Source: Pedobacter sp. SYSU D00535
Lineage (GTDB): Bacteria; Bacteroidota; Bacteroidia; Sphingobacteriales; Sphingobacteriaceae
Reading direction: 5' to 3'
Assembly (NCBI RefSeq): GCF_017355855.1
Contig: NZ_JAFEWD010000001.1
Location: 372,001 to 436,000 of the forward strand
DNA: 64,000 nt
The translations under genes and the position numbers were made by a program. Each line of letters starts with the position of its first letter. The stretch's first letter is position 1. Below, one piece after another: positions 41,122 to 63,827 of the stretch. The notes under the pieces are model-generated. The model did no database searches. It saw only the letters and a list, made by a program, of their open reading frames with translations, and was not told the origin of the DNA.

Positions 41122-41889
41122 CTAAATGCCAACCTTTCGCTGTATTTTTTCCGCGCACTGCAAGGTTTGAGTAAGAATTTCATCATTGCTAATCCCTTTG
41201 TTAATGTTTAGGGTAGTAAGGCGTGACACCGTAATACAAGCTGTAATACCACTCCCATTAGTTCCGATCGGGACGGAAATGTCTGTCACTCCTTCGGCGA
41301 GGTCGCTGTTACGGATATAAAAACCCTGCTTTGAAATGCGGTCCAGAGAGAATAAAAATTCATCTTGTTGCTCTTTGCTAAATCCCTTAAAAATTTCATT
41401 ATTTTCTAATGAGGCTATTCTTTCAACCTCAGAAAGATAGCTTAGCAATACCTTTCCTGAAGCTGTGAGAGGCAGGGGAAAAAGGTTTCCCTCTTCAATT
41501 GATAAGGCTATTGGCTCCGGGCTTTTGGCATGTAAAACTACCATTACCTGGTTCATGTAAAGTATGCTTAGGTGACATGATTGCCTAATGCTTTGCGCAA
41601 GATCTTCCAGCAGGAACTGGGCCGCCCGGCGCAGTTCATCAACAGGGGAGTGTCGATGCGAAAGATGATATAGCTTTAATGAGAGACGATATTTACCCGA
41701 TATCTCATCCCTTACAATATACCCACGACTCTCCAGGCTCATTAGCATCCTATAAATTTCATTTGGAGTTTTCTCAATACCAGAAGCAATTTCAGTCTGC
41801 GATTGAGGAATTGACACAGATGAAAGATATTCGAGAATGTCTAGTCCCTTATCAAGTGCGGGAGCCTGGTATTTCGTTTCTTTTTTCAT
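41122..41889 (-). CDS. IclR-family transcriptional regulator
   Basis: The 255-residue protein has an IclR winged helix (about residues 8-65: ALDKGLDILEYLSS, IASGIEKTPNEIYRMLMSLESRGYI) and the C-terminal effector domain (about 75-250), with SCHLSILYMNQVMVVLHAKS and LTASGKVLLSYLS. Family members bind small carboxylates or sugar acids (for example KdgR and pectin-derived acids). It is divergent from the SusC/SusD genes, and the 400-bp gap between them contains overlapping palindromes in the susC promoter, so it is the probable local regulator. TATGTTTG on the minus strand (41914-41907) could be its own -7 element. Confidence 0.9.
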   Translation of the reverse strand: MKKETKYQAPALDKGLDILEYLSSVSIPQSQTEIASGIEKTPNEIYRMLMSLESRGYIVRDEISGKYRLSLKLYHLSHRHSPVDELRRAAQFLLEDLAQSIRQSCHLSILYMNQVMVVLHAKSPEPIALSIEEGNLFPLPLTASGKVLLSYLSEVERIASLENNEIFKGFSKEQQDEFLFSLDRISKQGFYIRNSDLAEGVTDISVPIGTNGSGITACITVSRLTTLNINKGISNDEILTQTLQCAEKIQRKVGI

Positions 41890-42201: not shown

Positions 42202-42289
42202 GATGGGCCCAAAATACCTACGCAACTAATGCTTGATTTGAAAATTGTCACTCAAGCTTTTCCATCATCTACTAATCAACTACCGAACC

Positions 42290-45200: not shown

Positions 45201-45418
45201 ATTTAAGGCTCAAAAACATTGTTCTTGGCTACAATCTCCCTACATCAATTGCCAACAAAGTAGGGGCACAAGACATCGGTATTTATGTATCCGGAGACAA
45301 TCTTTTCACCATTACTAAATACGAAGGGGGCGACCCAGAGAGGGCGAGTCCGACTGGAAACTTTGCTCAGTATCCTCAAGCAAAAATTTATAATGTCGGT
45401 CTTAATGTTAAATTTTAA
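42290..45418 (+). CDS. SusC/RagA-family TonB-dependent outer-membrane transporter
   Basis: The 1042-residue protein has a long basic signal peptide ending KLLAQN. A carboxypeptidase-like sandwich follows (VTGKVSSAEGETLPGVTIKV), then the TonB-box-like region (EEVVVVGYGTQKR), the plug (about 105-230: LLQGRVPGLQV, VLIDGV, IENVTVLKDAASAAIYGARAANGVVLVTTKKG) and a 22-strand barrel to the end. There is no STN domain, so it is not a FecR signaller, agreeing with control by the IclR protein. With SusD it imports oligosaccharides in TonB-dependent fashion. I chose the ATG at 42290 over one at 42245 because it directly precedes the signal peptide. SusD follows 12 bp downstream. Confidence 0.95.
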   Translation: MKNSKLNFFGERKTRIWYIFLSFLLFANLPVKLLAQNTVTVTGKVSSAEGETLPGVTIKVKGSTTGTSTDLNGNYQLKLQEGSTLVFSYLGYLTQEVPLNGRTVINVQLASDSKALEEVVVVGYGTQKRANLTGSVATVSAETLTERPAPNAANLLQGRVPGLQVTQPSAEPGRDNPNLLIRGRGSFAGGTNNSPLVLIDGVTGSLNNLSPDDIENVTVLKDAASAAIYGARAANGVVLVTTKKGRKGKASISYRVNVGRHTPTALPDLITNSAEYMELYNQAAPKSGLVLYDPVEIEKYRNATDRNLYPNFDYVDYYINPANVSNHNISISGGGENSAYNISLGYLDQKAMIKGYNFNRYNGLLNYSNDVNKYITVGTSLNLTYKDRKEPPFTGENIALSIYAAGPLYAPFLPDGSGRVASKAYAFEGRNRNPQEYYEMGNQNTQEYNLNGQAFIDVKPLKGLVWTTKFALNYVDEYYKMYQKNYSAYLFQKTPGAADYTFNTFGPDILGVTDQYSKVINPTIYSILTYDTQFATNHSLRAMAGYEQVSNRNQNLRGRRINTVAPVLTDLTGYLPTSESLYFTHPRLPSLAAPAEWGLRSIFGRLNYSYKGKYLLEGNLRYDGTSKVSPEYRWGVFPSVSAGWTVSEENFIKNNISWLSFFKLRASYGVLGNQDVGTYLYQDNLVISNVFYPFGNTALQQGAVNNVFRDQSLRWESTSMLDFGFDMDIRNGFLGVSFDWFNKKTYDILASQPVPMSLGLNAPTTNDGEMRNRGIELTMSHQNKIGQFTYGANFLISTARNTLTHIRVPNESGANIRRVGLPYDAHYLYVWDGVFQEEDINNPNVPVHALNNNPAPGDLKMKDLTNDGIVDVNDRQVVDGYYPDFTYSFGLNFGFKRFSLNAFFQGVEGITSRVTGWGIDPFHQGAPPTTKWRNAWTPENRSNTLPAIYVQGYRGVNAYSGSTFFLQDASYLRLKNIVLGYNLPTSIANKVGAQDIGIYVSGDNLFTITKYEGGDPERASPTGNFAQYPQAKIYNVGLNVKF

Positions 45419-45430
45419 AAGAACAGAGCT

Positions 45431-46990
45431 ATGCATAATCAACATAAATTATCAGTTCTTCTGGCAGCTGGATTGCTGCTTGGAATCGCTTCCTGTAAGA
45501 AAGATTTTTTAGATAAAAATCCTCCAAATAGTGTGTCCAGCGAGATTTTTTGGGCATCTGAGAGTGATGTCCAAACTGGACTTGCAGGTGTATACTCCCG
45601 ACTTCAACAGAATTTCCTGGGCTATGAGCGCGTATATCTGGAAGGGTTGACCGATAATGCTTATCTCGATCCAGGTAACGGAAATCAGTCCAATATGCAG
45701 GTGATGACTACTGGTGGTATTAATGCCGGCCTTACAGGTGCAATGACAAATATGTACAGCACGCCCTATAGGGCTATCTCATCCGTTAACTATTTTCTGG
45801 CCAATGTAGACCGCGCCCCTGTCAGCGAGGCAAACAAAAATGTTTATAAGGCAGAGGTGCGCTTTATCAGGGCTTTGGCTTATTTTGATCTGGTTCAGGC
45901 CTTCGGCCCCGTTCCCATTTACCGTACCTATTTTAAAACATTAGATGAGTATAAAATTCCGAAGAGTACCGCTGCTGAGGTTTATGCCTTCATTGAAGAA
46001 GACCTTGATTTTGCTATTGCAAACCTGCCTGACATCAAATACAACGGTCACGCGGTAAAAGGAAGCGCCCAAGGCCTGAAGGCCAGGGTTTTGGTGACAC
46101 AGAAAAAATGGGACCAGGCTGTGCCACTACTACAGGACATCATAAACAACGCCGCGGGCAAGTTCTCGTTATCGAACAATTATGCTGCACTGTTCCGTAG
46201 CAGCGGACAAACCAATCCTGCAGTAAACAGCGAGATCATGTTTTCTACGCAGTACCTGGCGCCAAGTAATGTACACAGAACAAGCCCTGGAGCCGCAGGA
46301 ATGAATATTGAATTTGTCCGGGATCTTTTGATACAGCCATATAAAGATCTGGTGGATGATTATCAGATGAAAGACGGCTTGCCTGCTAATGAATCTCCGC
46401 TGTTTAATCCGGCAAGTCCTTACGCAAACCGCGATCCTCGTCTGGATCTCACTATTAAATTACCCGGTGAAGTTTGGAGAAATCCGGCAGGGACCGTCAT
46501 TGCCCCACCAGCGGAGCCGGCTACAGGCTTTGTCCTTGAGAAATACATTGACCTATCGATTGCTCCATTTACCGCTGCAACAGCTACAGCCACCGATGTA
46601 GATTTAATTCATCTGAGATATGCTGATATACTTCTGATGTACGCCGAAGCAAAAAACGAACTCTCTGGTCCCGATGGCACTGTCTACGATGCCATAGACC
46701 AGGTTAGGGGAAGACCGGGTATCAACATGCCGCCTGTCGACCGTGCTCGTTATGATACGAAGGAAGAACTGCGGGAGTTTATCAGACATGAACGAAGAGT
46801 GGAGTTTGCATTTGAAGGCCAGCGGTACAATGACCTGAAACGCTGGAATATTGCACACGTAAAGCTTCCGACATTGAAAACGCCGGGCAACACCGTACTT
46901 GTTTTCGAAATCCGAAATTATCTCCTGCCGTTGCCCTCATCCGAGCTATTGAACAACCCTCAATTGGAACAAAACCCGGATTACAGGTAG
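45431..46990 (+). CDS. SusD/RagB-family glycan-binding lipoprotein
   Basis: The 519-residue protein has a lipoprotein signal with Cys at residue 22 (LLLGIASCKKDFLDKNPPN). The SusD tetratricopeptide-like helices follow, with AEVRFIRALAYFDLVQAFGPVPIY typical of the family, and the C-terminal block RYADILLMYAEAKNEL, FIRHERRVEFAFEGQRYNDLKRW and YLLPLPSSELLNNP. It caps the SusC barrel at the cell surface and binds the incoming glycan. It is the second gene of the susCD pair; a 276-bp gap then separates it from the GH2-led operon. Confidence 0.95.
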   Translation: MHNQHKLSVLLAAGLLLGIASCKKDFLDKNPPNSVSSEIFWASESDVQTGLAGVYSRLQQNFLGYERVYLEGLTDNAYLDPGNGNQSNMQVMTTGGINAGLTGAMTNMYSTPYRAISSVNYFLANVDRAPVSEANKNVYKAEVRFIRALAYFDLVQAFGPVPIYRTYFKTLDEYKIPKSTAAEVYAFIEEDLDFAIANLPDIKYNGHAVKGSAQGLKARVLVTQKKWDQAVPLLQDIINNAAGKFSLSNNYAALFRSSGQTNPAVNSEIMFSTQYLAPSNVHRTSPGAAGMNIEFVRDLLIQPYKDLVDDYQMKDGLPANESPLFNPASPYANRDPRLDLTIKLPGEVWRNPAGTVIAPPAEPATGFVLEKYIDLSIAPFTAATATATDVDLIHLRYADILLMYAEAKNELSGPDGTVYDAIDQVRGRPGINMPPVDRARYDTKEELREFIRHERRVEFAFEGQRYNDLKRWNIAHVKLPTLKTPGNTVLVFEIRNYLLPLPSSELLNNPQLEQNPDYR

Positions 46991-47266: not shown

Positions 47267-50551
<3,285 letters not shown>

Positions 50552-50560
50552 ACATTGACC

Positions 50561-51724
50561 ATGAGTTTAAAAAAGATAACACTAAAAGGAATCACCTGGA
50601 ACCATAGCCGGGGTTTTGTGCCAATGGTGGCAACGGCTCAACGTTTTACAGAACTGAATCCATCCGTTGAAATAGTTTGGGAAAAAAGAAGTCTGCAGCA
50701 GTTTGCTGATTTCTCGATCGAGGAGCTTGCCAAACGTTTCGATCTTTTGGTTATCGACCATCCATGGGCTGGTTTTGCCGCAAAAACAAAATCGATTGTA
50801 CCTCTGGATGAATACCTAACCAAAGGCTTTATGCAAGATCAGGAACAGAACACCGTTGGGCGTTCGTTCGAGAGCTACTCATACGATGGCCATCAGTGGG
50901 CCCTGGCTATAGATGCTGCTACTCCGGTAGCTTCCAGTCGCCCGGACCTGTTTGAAAAGTACGGACTTGAGCTTCCTAAATCTTTCGACGACCTGATCGC
51001 TCTAGCAGACAAGGGACTGGTTGCGTTTGCAGGAATTCCGATCGATGTGTTAATGAGCTTCTACATGTTCTGCTGCTCACTGGGTGAAGATCCTTGTCAG
51101 CAGGAAGACCAGGTGATCAGTCAGGAAACCGGGATTAAAGCACTAAAGCTTTTTAGAGAATTAGCGACACGTGTTCATGCTGATAATTTTCATCGCAACC
51201 CCATTCAAGTGTATGAAGCAATGACGAAAACGGACCAGGTTGCTTATTGTCCTTTTGCCTACGGCTACTCGAATTACTCAAGAAGGGGTTACGCAAGAAA
51301 ACTGCTTCATTTCCACGATATGGTTTCCATAGATGGAAAAACGAACCTGAAAAGTACTCTAGGAGGAACTGGTCTCGCTGTTTCTTCAAGTTCGAAAGAC
51401 ATTTCGTTGGCCGTTCAGTATGCTAATTTTGTTGCCTCTGCTGAATCTCAGCAAACCGTATTTTTTGAAAACGGAGGACAACCCGGTCATTTGGCTGCCT
51501 GGTTGGATGAGGAGAACAATCGTCAGACCTGTAACTATTTCAAGAATACACTTCCAGCCTTAGAAAGAGCCTTTTTACGTCCTCGTTACCATGGTCACAT
51601 GTTCTTTCAAGATCATGCAGGCGATCTGGTGCGCGACTACCTGATGAAAGGTGGCAGCGAAGAGGAAGTGCTGGAGAAAATGAATGAACTATATTTAAAA
51701 TCGCGAAATCTACAGCCTGCATGA
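50561..51724 (+). CDS. Solute-binding-protein-fold protein without signal peptide (first copy)
   Basis: The 387-residue protein matches family 1 extracellular solute-binding proteins of ABC importers (VPMVATAQRFTELNPSVEIVWEKR, FDLLVIDHPWAGFAAKTKSIVPLDEY, GHQWALAIDAATPVASSRPDLFEKYGL, LGGTGLAVSSSSKDISLAVQYANFV). It begins directly with MSLKKITLKGITWNHSRGF and has neither a signal peptide nor a lipobox, so it should stay in the cytosol. No ABC permease or ATPase gene is in the window. The ATG at 50561 is preferred to a TTG at 50555. Its TGA overlaps the start of the first CoA-transferase by four bases. It may be a cytosolic sugar carrier or sensor, or an enzyme on this fold. Confidence 0.8.
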   Translation: MSLKKITLKGITWNHSRGFVPMVATAQRFTELNPSVEIVWEKRSLQQFADFSIEELAKRFDLLVIDHPWAGFAAKTKSIVPLDEYLTKGFMQDQEQNTVGRSFESYSYDGHQWALAIDAATPVASSRPDLFEKYGLELPKSFDDLIALADKGLVAFAGIPIDVLMSFYMFCCSLGEDPCQQEDQVISQETGIKALKLFRELATRVHADNFHRNPIQVYEAMTKTDQVAYCPFAYGYSNYSRRGYARKLLHFHDMVSIDGKTNLKSTLGGTGLAVSSSSKDISLAVQYANFVASAESQQTVFFENGGQPGHLAAWLDEENNRQTCNYFKNTLPALERAFLRPRYHGHMFFQDHAGDLVRDYLMKGGSEEEVLEKMNELYLKSRNLQPA

Positions 51725-52878
51725 AACGACCGCTCGACGGATTGCTAGTACTTGAGTTCTGCCAGTTTCTGGCGGGCCCTTCGGCTGGACTAAAATTGGC
51801 CGACCTGGGAGCGCGTGTGATCAAAATTGAGCGGCCGGTAAAAGGTGAGGCTTGTCGTCAGCTTGCTATCAAAAACCTTTTTGTAGGATCAGACAGCTTA
51901 CTTTTTCACACGATCAATAGGAATAAAGAATCCTATGCCGCAGATCTGAAAAACCGGGAAGATCTCGAAAACGTGAAAAAACTGATCGAGAAGGCAGATG
52001 TGGTGACTCATAACTTCCGCCCGGGAGTAATGGAAAAAATCGGGCTGGACTTTGAGTCGGTAAAGCAAATCAACCCTAAGATTATTTACGGAGTGGTTAC
52101 CGGCTACGGGCAGGAAGGGCCATGGGCAAACAAGCCGGGGCAGGATCTCCTGGTTCAATCTCTTTCCGGACTTACCCAACTGACAGGCACCAGCAATGAC
52201 GGTCCCGTTCCATTCGGTTTGTCAGTAGCTGACACTATGTGCGGCAATCATCTTACCCAGGGAATTCTGGCGGCTTTACTCAAAAGAGCTAAAACAGGTA
52301 AGGGGGTTCTGGTAGAGGTTTCCTTATTGGAGTCGACCCTGGACCTACAGTTTGAAGTGTTAACTACCTATCTCAATGATGGAGGAAAACTGCCGCAGAG
52401 AAGTTCGGTAAGAGGTGCCGGACATGCTTATCTAAGTGCACCTTACGGGATTTATCAAACTGCCGATGGTTATATTGCCCTTGCCATGGGGAACCTTCCG
52501 TCTATTGGAAATGTTATTGGTTGCGATATTTCCGCAACTTTTCCTGATCCGGAATCCTGGTTTGATAAGCGAGATGAGATTGGAGCACTTTTTTCGGAAA
52601 TCATTCTGAAAAGAAAAACGCAGGACTGGCTGCTAGACCTGGAACAAGCCGGCATCTGGAGCGCAGCTGTTTTGAACTATCAGGAAGTATTTGCACAACC
52701 GGGGGTAGCTGCCTCAGGAGTAGTGCAAGAACTTAAAACTGCAGAGGGAACCGAAATAAAAACAACTCGCAGTCCTATCCGGATCAATGAGGCAAAGCTT
52801 TATTCACCTAAAGTTGCGCCCCAGGTAGGAGAGAACACGCTACTTATCAACCAGGAGTTTAACTTGCAACCGAGCTAG
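51721..52878 (+). CDS. CaiB/BaiF (class III) CoA-transferase, first copy
   Basis: The 385-residue protein has the class III CoA-transferase landmarks: [30 protein letters not shown] at the N-terminus, [16 protein letters not shown], the [17 protein letters not shown] block, and the catalytic Asp as D171 in [21 protein letters not shown]. The C-terminal part has the small domain with [17 protein letters not shown]. Such enzymes move CoA between carboxylic acids through an aspartyl-CoA intermediate. It overlaps the previous gene by four bases, is followed 1 bp later by a paralogue, and may form an interlocked heterodimer with it. The substrate is unknown; a carboxylate-bearing sugar derivative is the contextual guess. 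Confidence 0.9.
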
Positions 52879-52879
52879 C

Positions 52880-54034
52880 ATGAAGCCACTTGAAGATTAT
52901 TTCGTTATAGATTTCAGTCAATTCCTTTCGGGACCATCAGCCAGCCTTCGTTTGGCCGATCTTGGTGCGAGGGTTATAAAAATAGAACGACCGGACACAG
53001 GCGACATTTGTCGTACACTCTACACTTCTAATTTGGTGATGAATGGGGAATCTTCCGTATTCCACGCCATCAATAGAAACAAGGAAAGCTTTGCCGCTGA
53101 TCTTAAAAATGAGGATGACTGCAAGGCTGTGTGGCAACTGCTCGAACAGGCGGATGTCGTGATGCACAACTTCCGACCGGGTGTTATGGAACGCCTCGGT
53201 TTTGATTACAAAAGCGTAAGCAGGATCAATCCCGGGGTAGTTTATGGGGAGATTTCCGGCTATGGATCGGAGGGAGAGTGGAAGGACAAGCCTGGGCAGG
53301 ATCTCCTGCTACAATCGCTGACGGGACTAACCTGGCTAAGTGGAAACGCAGATCATGGACCTGTTCCGATGGGTTTATCAATTGTGGACATGCTGGCCGG
53401 GGCACACCTTTCCCAGGGAATTCTTGCTTGTCTTTACGGTAAAATCAAAACAGGAGAAGGCGCTCTGGTTCAGGTCAGCATGCTCGATTCGTCGCTAGAC
53501 TTTCAATTTGAAACCGTCACTACCTTTTTGAACGATGGGAATGCCCTTCCTGAAAGAACAAAATCGAATAACGCTAACGCTTACCTCGGTGCTCCTTACG
53601 GGATTTATCAAACTGCGGATGGACATCTCGCTTTAGCGATGGGCTCAATCCCGGTTCTTGCAAAGCTGTTGGAATGCGAGGAGCTTGAGCAATTTGTAGA
53701 TCCGGCGGAAGCCTTTACAAAACGAGACCAAATTAAAGGTGTCCTGGCCAGCCACCTAAAAAAAGGAACTACCGGGAAGTGGTTATCTGTTCTGGAACCT
53801 GCCGATATCTGGTGTGCAGACGTGTTAAACTGGGATCAGTTGATGAACCACGAAGGCTTCAAAGTTTTAGACATGGTACAGGAAGTACAGATGACCGACG
53901 GCTATTCCTATCAAACCACCCGCTGCCCGATAAGGCTCGATGGTGAAATTTTTAGTTCTCCAAAAGGATCTCCTAAGATCGGGGAGGATAACGACCAAAT
54001 AACAAAGGAATTTTTACAGCTAGAGAAAAACTAA
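52880..54034 (+). CDS. CaiB/BaiF (class III) CoA-transferase, second copy
   Basis: The 384-residue paralogue of the preceding gene shares most landmarks ([51 protein letters not shown], and the catalytic Asp D170 in [20 protein letters not shown]). The two sequences are clearly related along their length, which points to tandem duplication and divergence. Keeping both catalytic Asp residues suggests that both are active, perhaps on different acceptors. Its TAA overlaps the ATG of the next solute-binding-like gene by one base, and it begins 1 bp after the previous stop. Confidence 0.9.
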
Positions 54035-55272
54035 TGGCTAACGCAGACGGTAAATTCAGAATTGCGGTTCGCAAATTTCCTCCCTTCGAAGCTGCCATGC
54101 AGAAGTTTTGGGATAAGTTTTGCGAACAGTCCGGTTGTTCATTACAGGCCGAACTGGTACCTCTTGACCTGCACCAGCTACACGAAGCGACGCTGGAGAA
54201 ACAGGGTCTCGCCACCGGTGACTGGGATGTAGCTCACATCAATACCGACTGGATTTTTGAAGCGTACACTTCGTCTGCTGTTGAAAGCTTAAATACTTAC
54301 ATCCAAAATAATCCTCCTGAGGGTTATCCTTCAGCCTGGAGCAAATCCTTGCTCGGTATGCAGCAATTTAACGGGAATATTGTTGGCTTACCCTTTCACG
54401 ACGGCCCTGAATGTCTGATCTACCGAAAAGACCTTTTTGAAGACCCTTCAGAGCAGGAGGCCTATCAGAAGGCCTTCGGAAAAGCGCTAGCTCCACCAGA
54501 AAGCTGGGAGGAGTTCCAGCAGATCGCCCAGTTCTTCAATCGCCCGGAGCAAAACCTTTACGGGACCGTCTTCGCAGGATATCCGGACGGCCATAATACA
54601 GTTTTTGATTTTTGCCTGCAATTGTGGACTCGAAATGGATACTTACTCAACTCAAAAGGAAATGTCCAGATCAACACGCCCGCTGCCATGAAGGGACTGG
54701 AGTTTTACCGTGAGATTTTCAGAGATAAAACCGCTGTTCATCCGGGTTCTTCGGAATTTGAATCAGTAGCGGCAGGTGCTGCCTTTGCCCGTGGAGAAGT
54801 TGCTATGATGGTGAACTGGTTCGGTTTCGCCTCGGTATGCGAAGTATCTGAAGACTCTAAAGTAAAAGGAAAGGTGGATGTGACTACTTTACCAAAGGGT
54901 GCCTACAGCGATTCTGCCTCTCTCAATGTATATTGGCTTTACACTATTGGGTCGGGTAGCCAACATAAGCAAGTTGCTTACGACTTTATCCGCTTTGCTA
55001 CTAACGCCGAGAACGACAAGCTGTTGACCCTTGAAGGAGGCATAGGTTGCCGAATTTCTACCTGGAAAGATCAGGAGATTAACAAGCTAGTCCCTTATTA
55101 CCATAAGCTGGAAATGCTGCACGAATGTGCTAAATCCCTTCCACAGAAATCTAACTGGACTACCATCGCTTCTATTATTGACGAAGCGGTACTTAAAGCA
55201 ATAAATACTGAACTTCCTGCAGAAACAATTTTAAATGAAGCGCAGGAAAAGATCAACCAAACGGACGAATAG
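54034..55272 (+). CDS. Solute-binding-protein-fold protein without signal peptide (second copy)
   Basis: The 412-residue protein has the fold of family 1 extracellular solute-binding proteins (DWDVAHINTDWIFEAYTSSAVESLNTYI, IVGLPFHDGPECLIYRKDLFED, PESWEEFQQIAQFFNRPEQNLYGTVFAG, GAAFARGEVAMMVNWFGFASV, SGSQHKQVAYDFIRFATNAEND). It starts [18 protein letters not shown] without signal peptide or lipobox, like the first copy, from which it is well diverged. Together the two bracket the CoA-transferase pair. With no permease or ATPase nearby, a cytosolic binding or delivery role is more likely than ABC import. The next gene begins immediately after its stop. Confidence 0.8.
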   Translation: MANADGKFRIAVRKFPPFEAAMQKFWDKFCEQSGCSLQAELVPLDLHQLHEATLEKQGLATGDWDVAHINTDWIFEAYTSSAVESLNTYIQNNPPEGYPSAWSKSLLGMQQFNGNIVGLPFHDGPECLIYRKDLFEDPSEQEAYQKAFGKALAPPESWEEFQQIAQFFNRPEQNLYGTVFAGYPDGHNTVFDFCLQLWTRNGYLLNSKGNVQINTPAAMKGLEFYREIFRDKTAVHPGSSEFESVAAGAAFARGEVAMMVNWFGFASVCEVSEDSKVKGKVDVTTLPKGAYSDSASLNVYWLYTIGSGSQHKQVAYDFIRFATNAENDKLLTLEGGIGCRISTWKDQEINKLVPYYHKLEMLHECAKSLPQKSNWTTIASIIDEAVLKAINTELPAETILNEAQEKINQTDE

Positions 55273-56379
55273 ATGCAAATATCATATAAGCCAGAATTAC
55301 CAGAAACGCGGCAGCCGATCGTCATCATCGGTGCCGGCGGAATTGTAAAGGATGCGCACCTGCCTGCCTATAAGCAAGCGGGTTTTGAAGTGTACGGGAT
55401 TACAAATAGGACAAGAGCCAGGGCCGAGAAACTAGCTGCTGATTTCGGCATTCCAAACGTATACGACACCGTGGAGCAGGCCGTGGCGAACGCACCGGCC
55501 AACGCTGTTTACGATATCACCATCATGCCCGAGAAGTACGTGGAAACATTAGAGCAGCTTCCTGATGGAGCAGCGGTTTTAATTCAAAAGCCTATGGGCG
55601 ACTACTTCTGGCAGGCAAAAGAAATTCTTGAGGTTTGCCGGAGGAAAAATCTGGTAGCCGCGATAAACTTTCAACTCCGCTTTGCGCCCTTTGTAAGTGC
55701 GGCCAGGTATATGATTGAAAAGGGCATGATAGGAGAGCTGTATGATATGGAGGTACGGGTGACGTTGGTAACTCCGTGGGAATTGTTTCCGCATGTGATG
55801 GTACACCCAAGACTCGAAATTCAATATCACAGCATTCACTACGTGGATATGATCCGCTCTTTTCTTGGCGATCCTTACAGTGTTTATGCCAAAACGCTTA
55901 AACACCCTGCTAAGGCTCTTTCCTCGTCGAGATCGACTATTATCCTTGATTATGGCGATACGATGCATGCGGTGATCAACACAAACCATGATCACGAATT
56001 CGGTCCGCACAATCAAGAGAGCTTTATCAAATGGGAAGGAACCAAGGGAGCTATTAAGGCGAAAATGGGCCTGTTGATGGATTATCCGCACGGTGTACCT
56101 GACAAGTTTGAATACTGCATCCGGGAGGAAGGAAAAGCGCCGGAATGGAAAACGGTGGAGCTGGAAGGTTCCTGGTTTCCTGAAGCATTTGTTGGAACGA
56201 TGTCGAACCTGATGAGATTTAAAGAAGGTTCAGACGCGGTACTACACACAGGTGTAGAAGATGTAATAAAAACAATGGCGGTTGTTGAAAGTGCCTACAT
56301 CTCCAGTGATAAAGGTGGGGTTGTTGTAGCTGAGCAGCTTCAGGGACTTTCGCCACAAACTCTAACTACTGATCTCTAG
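55273..56379 (+). CDS. Gfo/Idh/MocA family oxidoreductase
   Basis: The 368-residue protein has the Rossmann motif [23 protein letters not shown], the family signature as [17 protein letters not shown] (QKP in place of the common EKP), and the C-terminal catalytic domain with [18 protein letters not shown] carrying candidate catalytic His residues. It should oxidise or reduce a sugar or sugar lactone in the cytosol with NAD(P). D-apiose dehydrogenase of the apiose pathway belongs to this superfamily, which is of interest given the RuBisCO-like gene downstream, but nothing in the sequence fixes the substrate. It starts on the base after the preceding stop. Confidence 0.88.
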
Positions 56380-56395
56380 TCAAACCGATTATAAC

Positions 56396-56839
56396 ATGTA
56401 TTTCAAATCCACATTTTTCGAAGATTATATTTTAGGAGATAAACGCGTAACACTTGGGCGCACCATTACAGAGACTGATTTCGTGGTTCATGCCGGTCAT
56501 ACAGGTGATTTTTTCCCTCACCACATGGATGCAGAATGGTGCAAAACACAGCCATTTAAACAAAGAATAGCTCACGGAACCATGATCTTTAGTATAGGAA
56601 TTGGGTTGACAGCTTCTGAAATTAACCCGGAAGCGATGTCAAAGGGATACGACCGCCTGCGCTTTATTAAGCCGGTTTTCATCGGCGATACGATTCATTC
56701 TGAAGTCACCATTTCAGAGAAAACCGACGCAAAAAAGCCTGAATACGGAACTGTTACTGAACACGTGGAGATCATCAACCAGCACGGTGAAGTGGTTCTC
56801 GTATGCGACCATCTGCTGATGGTAAAAAGGAAACAATAA
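56396..56839 (+). CDS. MaoC-family (R)-hydratase/dehydratase
   Basis: The 147-residue hot-dog protein keeps the hydratase-2 motif with catalytic Asp and His in [17 protein letters not shown], followed by [15 protein letters not shown] and [22 protein letters not shown], all typical of MaoC (R)-specific enoyl-CoA hydratases. It adds or removes water on an acyl-CoA or related thioester. Together with the two CoA-transferases it implies that a metabolite in this locus is activated as a CoA ester and dehydrated, as in the mesaconyl-CoA reactions where CaiB-type and MaoC-type enzymes act in sequence. It is 16 bp after the oxidoreductase gene and 24 bp before the symporter gene. Confidence 0.88.
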
Positions 56840-56863: not shown

Positions 56864-58171
56864 ATGGCGTTTGCAACCCAGGAACCAGTAACTACAGCGA
56901 CGGGAAATCACGTCCCGCCCCAAAATCAAGGCAACAGCTACCTGATGCCCTTCATTCTTGTTACCTGCCTTTTCTTTTTATGGGGAATGGCTCATAATCT
57001 TGACTCAATTCTTATCCCGCACCTGAAAAAGGCTTGTCAACTGAATAACAGGCAGTCGACGCTGGTTGATACATCGATCTTTTTTGCCTATTTCCTGATG
57101 GCGCTTCCGGCGGGTGCTATCCTGAAGAAATGGGGATACAAGAACTCTATCATCTTGGGCTTGCTGGTGTTTGCGGCTGGTGCATTCCTGTTTGTTCCGG
57201 CGGCTAACAGCAGAGCTTACGAGATTTTCCTGATAGCTTTATTTATTATCGGTTGTGGTCTGACCGTTCTTGAAACTGCAGCCAATCCGTATGCGGCTGT
57301 CTTGGGCAGTCCGGCTACCGCCTCTAATCGTCTTAATCTTGCGGCTTCTTTCAACGGGCTTGCCGCAATGGTAGCGCCGATCGTAGGTAAATTGTTCATA
57401 CTTTCCGGAAAAGAATACACACCTGAACAATTAGAGGCCATGTCCGAGTCGGCGCGTTTATCTTACCTGGCGGGAGAAGCCGCTTCGGTAAAAATGCCAT
57501 ACATCGTTCTTGGGAGCGTATTGCTTCTGATCGCTATACTTTTCAAGTTTATGCACGTTCCTGAAGTAAAACCACAGTCAGATGACGTTAGCATTAAAGG
57601 CGGCTTTTTTGAAGTGTTAAAGCGGAGGCATTTATCCTGGGCGGTGGTAGCGCAATTCTTTTATGTAGGAGCCCAGGTCTGCGTTACCAGTTTCTTTATC
57701 CGCATGGCGCAGCAAGGTGCAGGTGTTAACGAACTAACCGCAGCAGAATATCTGGCGGTTTACGGATTCCTGTTTATGGCCGGACGTTTTGTGGGAACAG
57801 GTCTGTTAAAGTTTATCAGTTCTCAGAATCTGCTTTCTATCTACTCTGTACTTTCCGTCTTGCTTTGCCTGGTATCTATTTATGGAGAAGGTATCTATGT
57901 GATTTACGCACTTCTCGGACTCGGTTTTTTCATGTCAATTATGTTTCCTACCATCTTTGCCCTGGGAATTACCAATCTTGGGGAGGGGACAAAAGCCGGC
58001 TCCAGTTGGATCATCATGGCCATAGTTGGGGGAGCAATCCTGCCATACCTGATGGGGACGATCATCGATTTCAATGGCGATAATATCCAGTTGGGATATA
58101 TTATTCCGTTAATATGTTTTGTGGTGATTTTATTCTTTGGCATTAGAGGGTATAAGCCTGCCAATAATTAG
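56864..58171 (+). CDS. Sugar:H+ symporter, MFS FucP family
   Basis: The 435-residue protein has twelve transmembrane helices and the FucP family's first-helix motif LFFLWGMAHNLDSILIPHLKKACQL, then STLVDTSIFFAYFLMALPAGAILKKWGYK, LTVLETAANPYAAVLG and a second half with FLFMAGRFVGTGLL and IMFPTIFALGITNLG. FucP-type permeases take up L-fucose, L-galactose and other hexoses with H+. In a pectin locus it could carry L-fucose, galactose or a rare sugar released by the exported hydrolases. It lies in the same operon, with GH106 beginning 6 bp after its stop. Confidence 0.92.
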   Translation: MAFATQEPVTTATGNHVPPQNQGNSYLMPFILVTCLFFLWGMAHNLDSILIPHLKKACQLNNRQSTLVDTSIFFAYFLMALPAGAILKKWGYKNSIILGLLVFAAGAFLFVPAANSRAYEIFLIALFIIGCGLTVLETAANPYAAVLGSPATASNRLNLAASFNGLAAMVAPIVGKLFILSGKEYTPEQLEAMSESARLSYLAGEAASVKMPYIVLGSVLLLIAILFKFMHVPEVKPQSDDVSIKGGFFEVLKRRHLSWAVVAQFFYVGAQVCVTSFFIRMAQQGAGVNELTAAEYLAVYGFLFMAGRFVGTGLLKFISSQNLLSIYSVLSVLLCLVSIYGEGIYVIYALLGLGFFMSIMFPTIFALGITNLGEGTKAGSSWIIMAIVGGAILPYLMGTIIDFNGDNIQLGYIIPLICFVVILFFGIRGYKPANN

Positions 58172-58177
58172 TTAAAA

Positions 58178-61100
58178 ATGAGTTTTAAAGGATTTCGATT
58201 TTTTGCAGTACTATTTTCACTTGTTTTAAACGGGTTGCTTGCTCAAGCTCAAACTTCAGCAACTGCCAAACCCTGGGTGTTATGGTATTGGATGCATGGC
58301 GCAGCTTCCAAAGAAGGAATTACCGCTGATCTGGAGGCGATGAAAGAAGTGGGTATTGGTGGAGCTTATTTGATGCCCATAAAAGGCCCTACCAACCCGC
58401 CGCTGTTTACACCTGTCGCTGCACAGCTAAGCCCACTATGGTGGGAAATGGTTAAACATGCAGTACGTGAAGCCGACCGTCTCGGCTTAAAGATCGGCAT
58501 GAACGTTAGCGACGGCTTTGCAACCGCTGGAGGTCCATGGATAACTCCTGAGCTATCTATGCAAAAGGTCGTTTCTTCTCAAACGTATATTACTGGAGGA
58601 ACGAAGAATAAGATTAAACTACCGCAGCCGGAAACAAAAGAGAACTACTACCGCGATATCGCTGTATATGCCTTTCCTTCCGTTGAAGGCGCCGGTGTTT
58701 CTAGCCGCACCGTGGTTCCGAAAGTAACTACCAGCACCGGCATAGATGCATCGTTCCTGGTGAAGGCAGGCAATAAAGAAGCGATCCGTTCTAACAATCC
58801 TCTTTGGATTCAGTACGAATTTGCAAAGCCTTTTACAGCCCGTACTGTTTTTATCCATACCAACGGAAACAACGTTCAGGCTCACCGCTTGAAAATTGAG
58901 GTTAGCGATGACGGTAAGGCGTTCCGAAGTATTGGACGATTGCAGCCACCTCGGCACGGCTGGCAGGATACAGATGCAGATATCACCCACAGCATTGTTC
59001 CTACTACTGCCAGATACTTTAGATTTTCTTATGATAAAGCAGGTTCAGAGCCAGGGGCAGAAGATCTGGATGCAGCCAAATGGAAACCATCTTTAAAACT
59101 GGTACGCCTCGAACTTTCCTCAGAACCCAGAATCCATCAATTTGAAGGAAAATCAGGAGCCGTTTGGCGAATTAGTGAACGAACTGACGCAAACCAAATA
59201 CCCAACGACCTTTGCGTACCTCTGTCAAGTATCGTTAATCTCACCGATCGTCTTAATCCTGACGGAAGTTTAAACTGGACTGCTCCAAAAGGAGACTGGA
59301 CCATTATTCGGGTTGGACATACTTCTACCGGCCATACCAACGCTACAGGTGGCGCTGCGAAAGGCCTGGAGTTGGATAAATTTAACGCAGCAGCGGTAAA
59401 GCTGCATTTCAGTAATTGGTTTGGTGAGGCACTAAAACAGGTCGGTCCGGACCTGACACCTCGCGTTTTGAATACCTTATTCATGGATAGCTGGGAGGCT
59501 GGAAGCCAGAACTGGTCGCCGGTGTTCAGAGATGAGTTCAAAAAAAGGAGAGGGTATGACCTGCTTCCTTATCTTCCGGTGATGGCAGGTATTCCTATAG
59601 AGAGCGCCGAAGTTTCTGAAAAGTTTTTGTACGATGTCCGCAAAACAATCGCCGAGTTGATACCCGATGTCTACTTTAAAACGGTAGCACAATCTGTGAA
59701 GGAGCGGGGTATACTTTTTTCAGCAGAAAACGTATCACCCACCATGGTGAGCGACGGAATTCTGCACTTCAAAACCGCAGACATGCCGACAGGTGAATTT
59801 TGGCTAAACAGTCCTACGCACGATAAGCCCAATGATATGCTGGACGCTATTTCAGGCGCGCATGTTTATGGGAAGAACATTGTGCAATCAGAGGCATTTA
59901 CCACCGTTCGCATGGCCTGGGATGAGTACCCGGGCATGATGAAAACCCTGCAGGACAGAAATTACGCATTAGGCATTAACCGCTTGGTTTATCACGTATT
60001 TACGCACAACCCCTGGATGAACAGAAAACCGGGGATGACGCTCGATGGTGTCGGTTTGTATTTCCAGCGGGATCAAACCTGGTGGAAACAGGGCAAAGCC
60101 TGGGTACAGTATGCAGAAAGAGCGCAGGAACTCTTGCAACAGGGCAAGCCTGTTAGAGATATCGCTGTTTTCATGGGCGAAGAACTACCTCGTCGCTCAG
60201 TGCTGCCAGATCGTTTGGTGCCGTTTTTACCCGGTATTTTCGGGGAAGATGTGATGAAAGCAGAGGAAAAGCGACTGGCAAATATTGGAGAACCGCTGCG
60301 TCAGATTCCTGCTGGCGTAAATCACTCAGCTAACATGGCTGATCCTGAAAATTGGGTGAATCCGTTAAGAGGTTATGCCTACGACTCCTTCAACCCTGAT
60401 GCATTGTCGACTTCAAAGGTCGAGAATGGAGAAGTGGTATTCGAAAGCGGAGCGAGATATAAGCTGCTGATCCTTCCGGGGAAACGGAAAATGAATCCGG
60501 AGGCACAGCTCATGAGCCTCGAAGTTGCAACGAAGCTTCGGGATCTTGCCAACGAGGGAGCGACCATTATGATCGCTGAAAAGCCAACGGCAATGCCGGG
60601 ACTTCAGGCAGGGGATGCTTTTGCTTTCGACAGGGTAGTGAATGAACTTTGGAACGGCGACTTCTATGCTATCCGGAACGATGTAGATACTGTACTCATC
60701 AAGAAAGCAGGCAAAGGAAGGATCATCAAAGGCAAGTACATCTGGCCGTCTTTCTACAACATCGGATTGAACCGTGATCTGGATATTCTTGATTCTACCG
60801 AGGCTTACCCAAAAGGTATAGCATGGAATCACCGCCGTGCTGAGGGCAAAGACATTTATTTCATTTCCAACCAGCTGAATGAACAGCGTACCTTGAACTT
60901 CTCTTTCCGCGTGAAAAATGCTGCTCCTGAATTGTATGATGCTGTTACTGGTAAAACAAGTCCCGCTAATCAATGGAAGCCTTCCGGCGATCGGACAGAA
61001 CTGAAGCTCCAGTTGGAGCCAAACGCTTCTTTATTTGTCATTTTCAATGATTCAGATAAAGCAGTAAAGCAAAAAACCGGCAAGAACTGGACTGAACTAG

Positions 61101-61582
61101 AACCGATCCAAACGATTGCCGGCGATTGGAAAGTTAGCTTCGACACTTCGCTTGGAGGACCACCTCAGCCGGTGACTTTTAAAACCTTGGATAGTTGGTC
61201 GACCAACCAGGACAGCCTAATCAAATACTACTCAGGCACTGCGGCTTATACAACCAGCTTTAATACTAAAAAGCGGCACAAAGGACCGGTTTACCTGGAT
61301 CTGGGAGAAGTTGCTAATATAGCTGAAGTCAAAGTAAACGGTGTCTCCTGCGGGATAGTTTGGACAGCGCCTTATAGGGTAGACATCAGCAAAGCTTTGA
61401 AAAAGGGAAACAACCAGCTCACTGTAGAGGTGACAAATACCTGGGCGAATCGCTTGATGGGCGACCAGCGCTTGCCCGAAGATAAACGGATCACTAAAAC
61501 AACTGCACCTTATCGTCTGGAAGGAAAACCCTTGCTGAAAGCAGGTTTGTTTGGTCCCGTGACCTTGTTGAAGGAAGATTAG
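58178..61582 (+). CDS. Alpha-L-rhamnosidase, GH106
   Basis: The 1134-residue exported enzyme (signal peptide ending LLAQAQ at about residue 25) begins with WVLWYWMHGAASKEGITADLEAMKEVGIGGAYLMP, the start of the GH106 TIM barrel, and has GLKIGMNVSDGFATAGGPWI, LFMDSWEAGSQNWSP, FSAENVSPTMVSDG, GEFWLNSPTHDKPND and YHVFTHNPWMNRKPGMTLDG, all family blocks with several Glu/Asp residues at barrel ends. Carbohydrate-binding sandwiches lie within and after the barrel, and a GH2-like sandwich ends the protein (YLDLGEVANIAEVKVNG, VTNTWANRLMGDQRLP). Characterised GH106 enzymes remove alpha-L-rhamnose from rhamnogalacturonan side chains. It is part of the block B operon. Confidence 0.92.
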   Translation: MSFKGFRFFAVLFSLVLNGLLAQAQTSATAKPWVLWYWMHGAASKEGITADLEAMKEVGIGGAYLMPIKGPTNPPLFTPVAAQLSPLWWEMVKHAVREADRLGLKIGMNVSDGFATAGGPWITPELSMQKVVSSQTYITGGTKNKIKLPQPETKENYYRDIAVYAFPSVEGAGVSSRTVVPKVTTSTGIDASFLVKAGNKEAIRSNNPLWIQYEFAKPFTARTVFIHTNGNNVQAHRLKIEVSDDGKAFRSIGRLQPPRHGWQDTDADITHSIVPTTARYFRFSYDKAGSEPGAEDLDAAKWKPSLKLVRLELSSEPRIHQFEGKSGAVWRISERTDANQIPNDLCVPLSSIVNLTDRLNPDGSLNWTAPKGDWTIIRVGHTSTGHTNATGGAAKGLELDKFNAAAVKLHFSNWFGEALKQVGPDLTPRVLNTLFMDSWEAGSQNWSPVFRDEFKKRRGYDLLPYLPVMAGIPIESAEVSEKFLYDVRKTIAELIPDVYFKTVAQSVKERGILFSAENVSPTMVSDGILHFKTADMPTGEFWLNSPTHDKPNDMLDAISGAHVYGKNIVQSEAFTTVRMAWDEYPGMMKTLQDRNYALGINRLVYHVFTHNPWMNRKPGMTLDGVGLYFQRDQTWWKQGKAWVQYAERAQELLQQGKPVRDIAVFMGEELPRRSVLPDRLVPFLPGIFGEDVMKAEEKRLANIGEPLRQIPAGVNHSANMADPENWVNPLRGYAYDSFNPDALSTSKVENGEVVFESGARYKLLILPGKRKMNPEAQLMSLEVATKLRDLANEGATIMIAEKPTAMPGLQAGDAFAFDRVVNELWNGDFYAIRNDVDTVLIKKAGKGRIIKGKYIWPSFYNIGLNRDLDILDSTEAYPKGIAWNHRRAEGKDIYFISNQLNEQRTLNFSFRVKNAAPELYDAVTGKTSPANQWKPSGDRTELKLQLEPNASLFVIFNDSDKAVKQKTGKNWTELEPIQTIAGDWKVSFDTSLGGPPQPVTFKTLDSWSTNQDSLIKYYSGTAAYTTSFNTKKRHKGPVYLDLGEVANIAEVKVNGVSCGIVWTAPYRVDISKALKKGNNQLTVEVTNTWANRLMGDQRLPEDKRITKTTAPYRLEGKPLLKAGLFGPVTLLKED

Positions 61583-61784: not shown

Positions 61785-63827
61785 ATGACGATGATTATGA
61801 ACCGGATTTTTGCAAAAGGAAGCATTGCTTTATTTGCTGCATCAGTGGCTTTGGGAGCGCAGGCACAGGAGAAAAGCCTTGTGAATACTTCGAAAAGCCC
61901 TTACGCGAAGTTACAAAGTGTTAACATGGATGAGGTGACCTGGACGGACGGCTTTTGGGCTGATCGTTTCAAAGTGGCCCGCGAGAGCATGGTGCCTAAT
62001 ATGTGGCGGATTTATAATGACGCCGAAATTAGTCACGCTTTCAAAAATTTCCAGATCGCGGCGGGTTTAGATACCGGCTCGCATAAGGGGCCATCTTTCC
62101 ACGACGGCGACTACTACAAAACATTGGAAGCGGTAGCAAGTATGTATGCTGCCACCAGGGACAAACGCCTGGATGAAATGATGGACAAGGCCATTGCCGT
62201 GATTGCAAAGTCGCAACGCGAGGATGGTTACATCTACACCAAGGCGATGATCGACCAGCGCAAGACCGGAGAAAAGAACCAGTTTCAGGATCGGTTGAGC
62301 TTTGAGGCTTATAACATCGGGCACTTGATGACGGCAGCTTGCGTTCACTACAGGGCAACCGGCAAAACCAACCTGATGAACGTGGCGAAGAAAGCTACAG
62401 ACTATTTGTACCGGTTCTATAAGCAAGCCTCGCCTACATTGGCAAGGAATGCGATTTGTCCTTCTCACTACATGGGAACTGTGGAGATGTATCGCACCAC
62501 TCGCGATCCCCGCTACCTTGAATTGGCGAAGAATCTGATCGATATTAAAGGAAAAATCAACGATGGAACTGACGATAATCAGGACCGTATTCCTTTCCGC
62601 GAGCAGAAAAAAGCGATGGGCCACGCGGTAAGAGCGAACTATCTGTATGCAGGTGTGGCGGATGTCTATGCTGAAACAGGCGATGAAACGCTGATCAATA
62701 CGCTGAATCTGATGTGGGACGACGTAACTTCGCACAAGATGTACATTACTGGTGGCTGTGGTTCTTTGTATGACGGTGTTTCCCCTGATGGAACTTCCTA
62801 CAACCCGACAGAGGTTCAAAAGATTCACCAGGCCTTTGGACGCGACTACCAATTGCCCAATCACACTGCCCATAACGAAACTTGCGCTAACATCGGAAAT
62901 GTGTTATGGAACTGGCGGATGCTACAGCTAAGTGGTGAGGCGAAGTATGCCGACGTGATGGAACTTGCATTGTACAATAGTGTCTTATCCGGCATTAGTT
63001 TGGATGGAAAAAACTTCTTGTACACCAACCCTCTGGCTTTTTCAGACGAGCTACCATTTAAACAGCGCTGGTCAAAAGACCGCGTCCCATATATCGGATT
63101 GTCGAACTGCTGTCCTCCTAACGTAGTGCGTACCATTGCGCAGATTGCCAGCTACGCTTATAGTGTTTCTGACAAAGGATTGTGGCTGCACCTATATGGC
63201 GGCAACAAACTGAGCACCAAGTTGAAGGACGGCTCTAAGTTGAGCCTGACCCAAGAAACAGGTTACCCCTGGAACGGGAATATTAATCTTACTATAAAAG
63301 AAACATCAGCGAAACCATACTCGCTGTTTTTGAGAATTCCCGGATGGGCATCCAGTGCGAAGGTTTTGGTGAACGGAAAGGCAGTTGATGCTGCTGTAAA
63401 GCCCGGTTCTTATGCCGAGCTAAATCGCAAATGGAAAAAAGGAGATAAGGTGGAACTGGTTCTTCCGATGGAAGCGAAACTGGTGGAAGCAAATCCCCTT
63501 GTAGAAGAAACAAGAAATCAGGTGGCCGTAAAAAGAGGTCCGGTGGTTTATTGTTTAGAGTCACAGGATCTACCAAATTTGGATATTACCAATGTGGTGG
63601 TTCCCGCAACGATCAGTCTGCAGCCGAAGCCAATCACGATTGATGGCGCACAGGTGATGAGCCTGGAAGGTGTAGCTAAAAGCGTAGAACCAAAAGATTG
63701 GAAGAATACACTTTATAGAGAAGTATCCACTGCTGATAAAACCACTTCCATTCGCCTGATCCCTTATTTCGCCTGGGGCAACAGAGGTCACGCGGAAATG
63801 TCAGTTTGGTTGCCAGTCAGCAGATAA
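61785..63827 (+). CDS. Beta-L-arabinofuranosidase-type hydrolase, GH127
   Basis: The 680-residue exported protein (signal peptide ending ALGAQAQ at residue 28) has the GH127 (alpha/alpha)6 barrel (about 45-440) and beta-sandwich tail (about 450-680). The zinc/cysteine catalytic site is visible: E365 and C367 in HNETCANIG, and C442-C443 in GLSNCCPPN, matching the Zn-bound Cys nucleophile arrangement of the family. Characterised members release beta-L-arabinofuranose; one in the Bacteroides rhamnogalacturonan-II system acts on aceric acid, so the substrate here is open. The start at 61785 is used; ATG codons at 61791 and 61797 are possible alternatives. The RuBisCO-like gene follows after 46 bp. 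Confidence 0.92.
   Translation: MTMIMNRIFAKGSIALFAASVALGAQAQEKSLVNTSKSPYAKLQSVNMDEVTWTDGFWADRFKVARESMVPNMWRIYNDAEISHAFKNFQIAAGLDTGSHKGPSFHDGDYYKTLEAVASMYAATRDKRLDEMMDKAIAVIAKSQREDGYIYTKAMIDQRKTGEKNQFQDRLSFEAYNIGHLMTAACVHYRATGKTNLMNVAKKATDYLYRFYKQASPTLARNAICPSHYMGTVEMYRTTRDPRYLELAKNLIDIKGKINDGTDDNQDRIPFREQKKAMGHAVRANYLYAGVADVYAETGDETLINTLNLMWDDVTSHKMYITGGCGSLYDGVSPDGTSYNPTEVQKIHQAFGRDYQLPNHTAHNETCANIGNVLWNWRMLQLSGEAKYADVMELALYNSVLSGISLDGKNFLYTNPLAFSDELPFKQRWSKDRVPYIGLSNCCPPNVVRTIAQIASYAYSVSDKGLWLHLYGGNKLSTKLKDGSKLSLTQETGYPWNGNINLTIKETSAKPYSLFLRIPGWASSAKVLVNGKAVDAAVKPGSYAELNRKWKKGDKVELVLPMEAKLVEANPLVEETRNQVAVKRGPVVYCLESQDLPNLDITNVVVPATISLQPKPITIDGAQVMSLEGVAKSVEPKDWKNTLYREVSTADKTTSIRLIPYFAWGNRGHAEMSVWLPVSR

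Follow-up and report, generated by a model that had tools for sequence, protein, structure and literature searches.

A putative coenzyme A module linked to L-fucose-type catabolism in a rhamnogalacturonan-II locus of Pedobacter sp. SYSU D00535

Introduction

Why should a locus for plant-glycan use carry two coenzyme A (CoA)-transferases, a MaoC-type hydratase and two solute-binding proteins (SBPs) without signal peptides? The question is raised by a 64,000-nucleotide stretch of Pedobacter sp. SYSU D00535 (contig NZ_JAFEWD010000001.1, positions 372,001 to 436,000), hereafter the window, in which genes for SBP1, CaiB1, CaiB2, SBP2, a Gfo/Idh/MocA oxidoreductase (Gfo/Idh), MaoC and FucP follow one another in a predicted locus for the use of rhamnogalacturonan II (RG-II). 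The enzymes that cut RG-II are known, and for the catabolism of several of its odd monosaccharides after release we found no description in the open-access literature. According to PMC12168206, RG-II ranks among the most complex glycans of plants, is present throughout the terrestrial plants and has 2-O-methyl-fucose as a constituent. In this study, we find that SBP1, CaiB1, CaiB2, SBP2 and MaoC behave as a detachable CoA module, and we give an about even chance to the proposal that the module acts on oxidative (non-phosphorylating) L-fucose-type catabolism and here serves a sugar released from RG-II, with a substrate and a chemistry that we infer.

Results

A coupled seven-gene cassette

All seven genes lie on the forward strand. 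SBP1 (50561-51724; SBP_bac_1, PF01547, 1.4e-13), whose ATG sits 9 bp past the stop of an upstream glycoside hydrolase (GH) family 2 gene and for which an alternative TTG start at 50555 is possible, is followed by two class III CoA-transferases, CaiB1 (51721-52878; CoA_transf_3, PF02515, 4.5e-98) and CaiB2 (52880-54034; PF02515, 2.3e-95), by a second SBP-fold protein, SBP2 (54034-55272; PF01547, 1.8e-26), by Gfo/Idh (55273-56379; GFO_IDH_MocA, 6.1e-12), by the short hot-dog-fold hydratase MaoC (56396-56839; MaoC_dehydratas, PF01575, 2e-22) and by FucP, of the L-fucose:H+ symporter family (56864-58171; TIGR00885, 372.8 bits against a cut-off of 280.4), which also scores over the cut-off of the gluP subfamily. 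SBP1 and CaiB1 overlap by 4 bp, CaiB1 and CaiB2 are 1 bp apart, the SBP2 start sits on the CaiB2 stop codon with an overlap of 1 bp, and gaps of 0 and 16 bp separate Gfo/Idh from SBP2 and from MaoC. No PF02515 protein other than CaiB1 and CaiB2 was found in the 4.9-Mb genome. An earlier note, made from the letters of the sequence, had described six consecutive genes with these couplings and families at 50561-56839, and both the coordinates and Pfam agree with it. The neighbours GH2, GH106 and GH127 that it named are likewise in place; FucP, which it counted as a flank, is instead the seventh member of the cassette, and the setting is better described as an RG-II locus.

The starts of SBP1 and SBP2 abut the GH2 and CaiB2 stops, so that ahead of neither is there space for a signal peptide. 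Hydropathy over the N-terminal 40 residues reached at least 1.6 in one of 105 SBP1 and one of 89 SBP2 proteins (the window included); among controls the measure fires in 10 of 10 SusD, 40 of 44 GH106, 68 of 86 CaiB1 and 15 of 34 GH2 proteins, and because of this mixed outcome it is informative for low values only. SBP1 and SBP2 have the predicted fold of solute-binding proteins of ABC transporters and lack their export signal, as the note had proposed, and no ABC permease was found among the scanned genes surrounding the cassette.

The cassette in Bacteroidota

The arrangement was compared in loci of named genomes. Exact short patterns led to 286 loci, of which the best 80 were taken, and for that reason the set leans to close relatives; presence was counted by tblastn, since the greedy open reading frame (ORF) caller misses some overlapping genes. 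The exact order SBP1-CaiB1-CaiB2-SBP2-GfoIdh-MaoC-FucP holds in 74 of the 80, which argues that the gene set is not due to chance. FucP is present in 75 loci, and homologs of IclR, GH137 and GH141 in 29, 49 and 5, respectively; at least one homolog of the window's GH78, GH106, GH137 or GH141 proteins occurs in 60 of the 68 loci with full 10-kb flanks. SBP1 adjoins CaiB in nearly every locus seen, with a median gap of -4 (69 pairs). A metagenome contig of Hymenobacteraceae (L092) has a SusC-like stretch between SBP1 and CaiB1, either an insertion or a misassembly. Many neighbouring genes, here and below, were named by eye or by BLAST against our own panel, and those that bear weight were scanned against family models.

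In a sample of 296 genomes drawn across the phylum, SBP1 occurs in 16, an aceric acid hydrolase (acerase) over the family cut-off in 16 and GH141 in 14; for the acerase only matches over the cut-off count, and 72 genomes have some GH127 match. The acerase is found in 12 of the 16 SBP1-positive genomes, compared with 4 of the 280 others (Fisher p = 4e-15, phylogeny ignored), and in all 12 shared genomes, three of which are single-contig, it lies on the same contig as SBP1, about 10 to 110 kb away. The SBP1-positive genomes without a full-scoring acerase are G107, G154 and G182, with intermediate scores, and G214, with generic GH127 scores only; those with an acerase and without SBP1 are G166, G190, G206 and G238. 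Fisher tests used presence lists from the genome scans, with G116, where FucI is below cut-off, excluded. We also considered the cassette as a replacement for FucI and rejected this idea, as FucI exceeds its cut-off in 1 of 16 SBP1-positive and 11 of 280 other genomes and there is no association.

Linkage to L-fucose genes

Outside RG-II loci, the cassette is linked to genes for L-fucose dehydrogenase, a lactonase, a protein of the fumarylacetoacetate hydrolase (FAH) family and 2-keto-3-deoxy-L-fuconate (KDF) dehydrogenase, in Flavobacteriaceae and, by annotation, in alphaproteobacteria. Four Flavobacteriaceae loci (L101, L104, L105 and L110) have an operon, divergent from SBP1, of a short-chain dehydrogenase (SDR), FAH, an alcohol dehydrogenase (ADH), a second SDR and a lactonase; in three of them a RhaD-like gene and GH141 come next. 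In L104, the second SDR, the only copy scored, exceeds the cut-off for L-fucose dehydrogenase (353.8 against 300). L113 has a shorter divergent operon, in which FAH was not seen. Among more distant cassettes, a fuconolactonase-like amidohydrolase occurs in L030-L033 (159.9 of 400 bits in L030, the one tested), together with a RhaT-like transporter in L031-L033, FAH and L-rhamnose mutarotase (rhaM) in L032, and, over cut-off in L031 and L033, an alpha-D-galacturonidase, which we take to be an RG-II enzyme. L026 and the Persicobacter locus L182 adjoin GH29 fucosidases and sulfatases. In L026-L028 there are also genes that by eye encode an enoyl-CoA hydratase and an aldehyde dehydrogenase, of which the L026 hydratase and the L027 dehydrogenase were scanned; the best NCBIfam match of the latter is PRK10090 (490.9 of 500 bits), presumably the lactaldehyde dehydrogenase of E. 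coli.

The Pedobacter genome itself carries a separate operon, FucP-SDR-FAH-lactonase-ADH-AKR (AKR, aldo-keto reductase), on contig C1 (G000:C1), in which FucP scores over TIGR00885 and under NF007524, the lactonase 291.9 of 400 bits and FAH 360.6 of 500 bits. A rhamnose-type operon is also present, and FucI was not found in the genome. That a second FucP stands in the RG-II cassette suggests a sugar distinct from L-fucose yet similar to it. L-fuconate dehydratase was not found among the scanned ORFs of the window (20 between 23157 and 63827 and two upstream, with ORFs of 1-7.8 kb and 12-23 kb unscanned), nor by BLAST in L168 and L186; two enolase-superfamily genes lie elsewhere in the genome.

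One genome separates the module from the fucose genes. G206 is probably a Flavobacterium; it shares its genus (g9) with six SBP1-positive genomes, and the L-fucose dehydrogenases of G206 and Flavobacterium L104 are 93% identical. It carries the acerase, GH141 and the same divergent fucose operon, on the other side of which stand Gfo/Idh (69%) and FucP (68%) only (together G206:C1:4794785-4802415; L230, L171). The 59.8 kb around this operon showed none of SBP1, CaiB1, CaiB2, SBP2 and MaoC, and a genome-wide search, which covered SBP1 and CaiB2 and not SBP2 or MaoC, found no relative of either protein. Since Gfo/Idh and FucP alone are kept, both belong with the fucose core, whereas the remaining five behave as a detachable unit, and G206 offers a comparison strain of natural origin.

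Alphaproteobacterial relatives

The module also occurs in a second phylum. SBP1 matches were found in 147 plasmid records, 90 of them from Sinorhizobium, and nine annotated alphaproteobacterial strains were opened. In seven of these (S. meliloti ml47, Thalassospira, Roseibium, Shinella, Ponticoccus, Ensifer and Pararhizobium) the SBP1-CaiB pair is accompanied by IclR, rhaM, Gfo/Idh and MaoC, and the same seven regions carry at least one of an annotated amidohydrolase, SDR, FAH or UxaA. An L-fuconate dehydratase is annotated in five of the nine (Roseibium, Shinella, S. meliloti ml47, Ensifer and Pararhizobium). A stretch of ~21 kb that includes transposase genes separates the pair from MaoC in S. 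meliloti ml47; in S. meliloti ml45 the pair is present in the 21-kb stretch opened, which ends short of the fucose genes. Identity between the phyla is 63-70% for MaoC (four loci), 50-55% for CaiB, 41-47% for Gfo/Idh and 35-39% for SBP1, and overlaps of SBP1 with CaiB are annotated in some alphaproteobacterial strains. The earlier note had held that the same genes outside any glycan locus, with an unrelated substrate, would speak against its idea; the alphaproteobacterial module does sit in ABC-transporter loci, but the sugar there is a related one. A more distant SBP1-CaiB pair, of about 32-36% identity, occurs at L148:8796-11915 and L150:8778-11119; in Sinorhizobium M103, the ninth of the strains opened, it is followed by an enoyl-CoA hydratase in the ABC locus of another sugar, which suggests that SBP-CaiB pairs may serve several sugars.

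Protein families and predicted structures

At least 97% of aligned relatives have CaiB1 Asp171, CaiB2 Asp170, the MaoC residues Asp38 and His43, and Lys106 and His189 of Gfo/Idh; judged by their families, these are the catalytic residues. The best PDB match of CaiB1 is a formyl-CoA transferase (10uh_A), and CaiB stays under every NCBIfam equivalog cut-off (formyl-CoA, mesaconate, carnitine, succinate-glutarate), the best score being 243.2 of 750 bits. In a CaiB tree of 46 rows, rooted for drawing only, the five alphaproteobacterial CaiBs form one clade (100/100), and the Bacteroidota copies group as CaiB1, with support of 100/99, and less firmly as CaiB2, at 81/74; a tandem duplication in Bacteroidota after which both copies were retained would be expected to give this pattern. 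A pathway of the mesaconyl-CoA/methylaspartate type was tried and rejected, the match to the mesaconyl-CoA hydratase family PF19315 being 19.5 bits, below the cut-off of 26.5. A close homolog of the cassette MaoC is found in PDB entry 4ffu (209.7 bits), presumably from S. meliloti and deposited as an 'oxidase', a doubtful label.

AlphaFold2 models, of high confidence for SBP1 (pLDDT 92.2) as well as for SBP2 (93.3), predict a MalE-type binding-protein fold. SBP1 compared with 1eu8_A (VIA) gives Z 37.4 and rmsd 2.7 over 372 aligned positions, and the best Foldseek match of SBP2 is also 1eu8_A, at 23% identity. In SBP1, 83 positions reach at least 97% identity, a level of conservation that speaks for a specific ligand or partner.

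The RG-II setting

Upstream of SBP1 lies the GH2 protein, a LacZ-type beta-galactosidase (47267-50551, forward strand; NF052611, 951.5 of 999 bits). Downstream of FucP, on the same strand, follow a GH106 alpha-L-rhamnosidase (58178-61582; PF17132, 7.2e-176) and the GH127 aceric acid hydrolase of the BT1003 type (61785-63827; NF049879, 1208.9 bits against a cut-off of 950), the gene for which begins 4.9 kb downstream of MaoC. Further upstream are a SusC/SusD pair named by eye (42245-46990, forward strand; ORFs 42245-45418 and 45431-46990) and, on the reverse strand, an IclR protein as candidate regulator (41122-41889; PF01614). A GH137-like protein (25939-27057, forward strand) scores 540 bits over positions 10-361 of NF049877, under the cut-off of 1800; this is the model of the BT0996-type beta-glucuronidase/beta-L-arabinofuranosidase, and the protein covers its first part. 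A GH141 protein (28576-30516, forward strand; PF21231, 6.5e-72) and two GH78-type rhamnosidases complete a gene content that identifies the locus as a predicted RG-II utilisation locus. The RG-II link that the earlier note had drawn is thus upheld by the acerase score and the accompanying hydrolases, and by the co-occurrence of acerase and SBP1 across genomes.

Other genes of the locus are recorded here in their own right. A 254-residue protein at 30497-31258, lipoprotein-like by eye and with a C-terminal match to L-rhamnose mutarotase (PF05336), is encoded by a gene with a 20-bp overlap with that for GH141. Directly past the window end (G000:C11:436001-439300, equal to L168:1-3298) stand genes for a RuBisCO-like protein, a DUF1537-type kinase and a member of the Asp/Glu racemase family; the first two are presumably gene types of the D-apiose pathway, and together these genes look like parts of a putative route for apiose, another RG-II sugar. 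An enzyme list in PMC11747546 includes 3-oxoisoapionate kinase and 3-oxoisoapionate-4-phosphate decarboxylase. DUF5703 proteins recur in RG-II and cassette loci (L168:6153-8459, L181:6507-8699 and L172:10366-12696), in Rufibacter two genes upstream of SBP1; tried as possible GH139 enzymes, those near the cassette had no NCBIfam match at 1e-8. A passage of the review PMC10154630 assigns the 2-O-methyl-fucosidase role to GH139 and describes the GH141 enzyme BT1002 as releasing 2-O-methyl-xylosyl-fucose from side chain A in an endo role; an argument that took GH141 for the 2-O-methyl-L-fucosidase is ruled out by that assignment, and we dropped it.

Discussion

The locus thus raises the question of what a CoA module may add to the use of a fucose-like sugar. 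The non-phosphorylating L-fucose pathway consists of L-fucose dehydrogenase, fuconolactonase, L-fuconate dehydratase, KDF dehydrogenase and diketo-deoxyfuconate hydrolase; we know of no CoA-transferase, MaoC or SBP in it. SDR, FAH, lactonase-type and L-fucose dehydrogenase genes of this kind adjoin the module in Flavobacteriaceae and have annotated counterparts in alphaproteobacteria, whereas the CoA module itself is an addition. In the pathway that we propose, a free sugar would be taken up via FucP and oxidised at C1, by the cassette Gfo/Idh or by a dehydrogenase encoded elsewhere, and a COG3618 lactonase would open the lactone. CaiB1 and CaiB2 would then transfer CoA from a donor thioester onto the aldonate, either 2-O-methyl-L-fuconate or L-fuconate, which cytosolic SBP1 and SBP2 may bind and pass to the transferases. 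MaoC would dehydrate the thioester at C2-C3, and the product would join the KDF branch, where SDR and then FAH would yield pyruvate and lactate. This keeps the general idea of the earlier note, that of a sugar acid oxidised, activated with CoA and dehydrated, with which the conserved catalytic residues are consistent, and gives up aceric acid as the substrate.

As substrate we lean towards 2-O-methyl-L-fucose, with L-fucose close behind. A modified fucose would explain both the five dehydratase-bearing alphaproteobacterial loci and the module-less G206, because on chemical reasoning a 2-O-methyl group would block keto acid formation from the product of the ordinary dehydratase. Taken further, two phyla would catabolise 2-O-methyl-L-fucose via CoA thioesters of sugar acids: a CaiB pair charged by cytosolic SBPs would activate the O-methyl aldonate, MaoC chemistry would remove the ether independently of oxygen, and the carbon would join the 2-keto-3-deoxy-fuconate branch. 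The SBP-CaiB pair would then be a portable CoA-charging unit, with paralogous units such as the SBP-CaiB-enoyl-CoA hydratase set of L148 serving other sugars. We offer this specific version tentatively, and consider it possible though on the doubtful side.

Several observations weigh against the proposed role or the methylated substrate. The annotated L-fuconate dehydratase beside the module in alphaproteobacteria leaves the need for the module there unexplained. GH141 beside the cassette favours L-fucose over the methyl ether, given the side chain A role that the passage of PMC10154630 describes; no GH139 was identified, and the fucose near GH29 fucosidases and sulfatases need not be methylated. 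The co-occurrence statistics ignore phylogeny, neither GH78 nor GH106 by itself is specific to RG-II, and 8 of the 68 full-flank loci have no GH78, GH106, GH137 or GH141 homolog within 10 kb. The cassette FucP falls under the stricter NF007524 (330.8 against 427 bits). The module is also not uniform, in that SBP1 lies ~60 kb away from CaiB in G286, no SBP2 was found in L030-L033, each a 20-kb stretch, and neither SBP2 nor Gfo/Idh nor MaoC in L027 and L028.

Three other explanations have to be weighed. The module could be a CoA-dependent substitute for L-fuconate dehydratase, in which MaoC would dehydrate L-fuconyl-CoA and the CoA would be passed to the next fuconate. Neither the fucose operon of the Pedobacter genome (L186) nor that of Flavobacteriaceae has a recognised dehydratase gene, and such a dehydration would complete the latter operon, which lies beside the cassette; a single IlvD is present in each of G170 and G025, along with low-scoring enolase-superfamily members only, some cassettes adjoin GH29 fucosidases and sulfatases, and GH141, in the account given in PMC10154630, frees a fucose-containing disaccharide. 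However, five alphaproteobacterial strains have the module and an annotated L-fuconate dehydratase together, the Pedobacter genome has two FucP genes in different operons, and in G206 the fucose operon stands without the module, with no extra high-scoring enolase-superfamily gene that might replace it (IlvD/EDD was not checked there). We regard this substitute role as unlikely. Less probable still, in our estimate, is that the SBPs serve as sensors in regulation, or are what remains of an ABC importer, while CaiB and MaoC act on a common acid further downstream, such as lactate. In line with this, the scanned genes near the cassette include no ABC permease, an IclR regulator keeps company with the set, and the CaiB scores, all below the NCBIfam equivalog cut-offs, assign neither a donor nor an acceptor. 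Against it stand the tight coupling of SBP1 to CaiB in both phyla (a median gap of -4 over 69 pairs, and annotated overlaps in alphaproteobacteria) and the 83 near-invariant positions of SBP1, which are unlike those of a remnant.

The degradation of aceric acid, which the earlier note had suggested, would begin with an oxidation that gives a dicarboxylic acid, which would then be activated with CoA, dehydrated and decarboxylated. The acerase gene in the window, 4.9 kb from MaoC, and the excess of acerases among SBP1-positive genomes (12/16 versus 4/280) fit this explanation, but the module is also found in the fucose loci of alphaproteobacteria and, in Bacteroidota, next to GH29 fucosidases and sulfatases, a full-scoring acerase is missing from four SBP1-positive genomes, one of which, G214, has generic GH127 scores only, and FucP scores as an L-fucose permease. 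Because the module travels with L-fucose genes outside RG-II, and because FucP passes TIGR00885, we consider aceric acid very unlikely as the substrate, and retain the proposal of a CoA module on L-fucose-type catabolism.

Each component of the module has known relatives. With class III CoA-transferases (formyl-CoA:oxalate, succinate-glutarate/HMG and succinyl-CoA:mesaconate) the CaiBs have PF02515 and the nucleophile Asp in common, but they fall below the equivalog cut-offs, form a tandem pair and are coupled to SBP-fold proteins. MaoC has the hot-dog family and the Asp/His dyad of short MaoC/(R)-enoyl-CoA hydratases and 4ffu, yet lies in sugar loci. The SBPs have the predicted fold of MalE-type proteins (1eu8, 6dtq, SmoF) at 16-23% identity, without a signal peptide or an ABC permease among scanned neighbours. 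The RG-II loci of Bacteroides thetaiotaomicron presumably resemble this one in GH127 acerase, GH141, GH106, GH137-type and SusC/D genes, whereas the CoA cassette is found here; B. thetaiotaomicron itself was not searched for it. The enzyme families are thus all known. We found no description of the gene set or of the joint use of these families in the open-access literature, which does not show its absence from print, and the pairing of a cytosolic SBP with a CoA-transferase may be a categorically new element.

Altogether, the question extends beyond pectin and can be addressed in laboratory strains, because rhizobia (S. meliloti pSymB) and Roseibium carry relatives of the set. If the proposal is true, a CoA-thioester route for a sugar acid, together with cytosolic SBPs that partner CoA-transferases, would be new chemistry for sugar catabolism.

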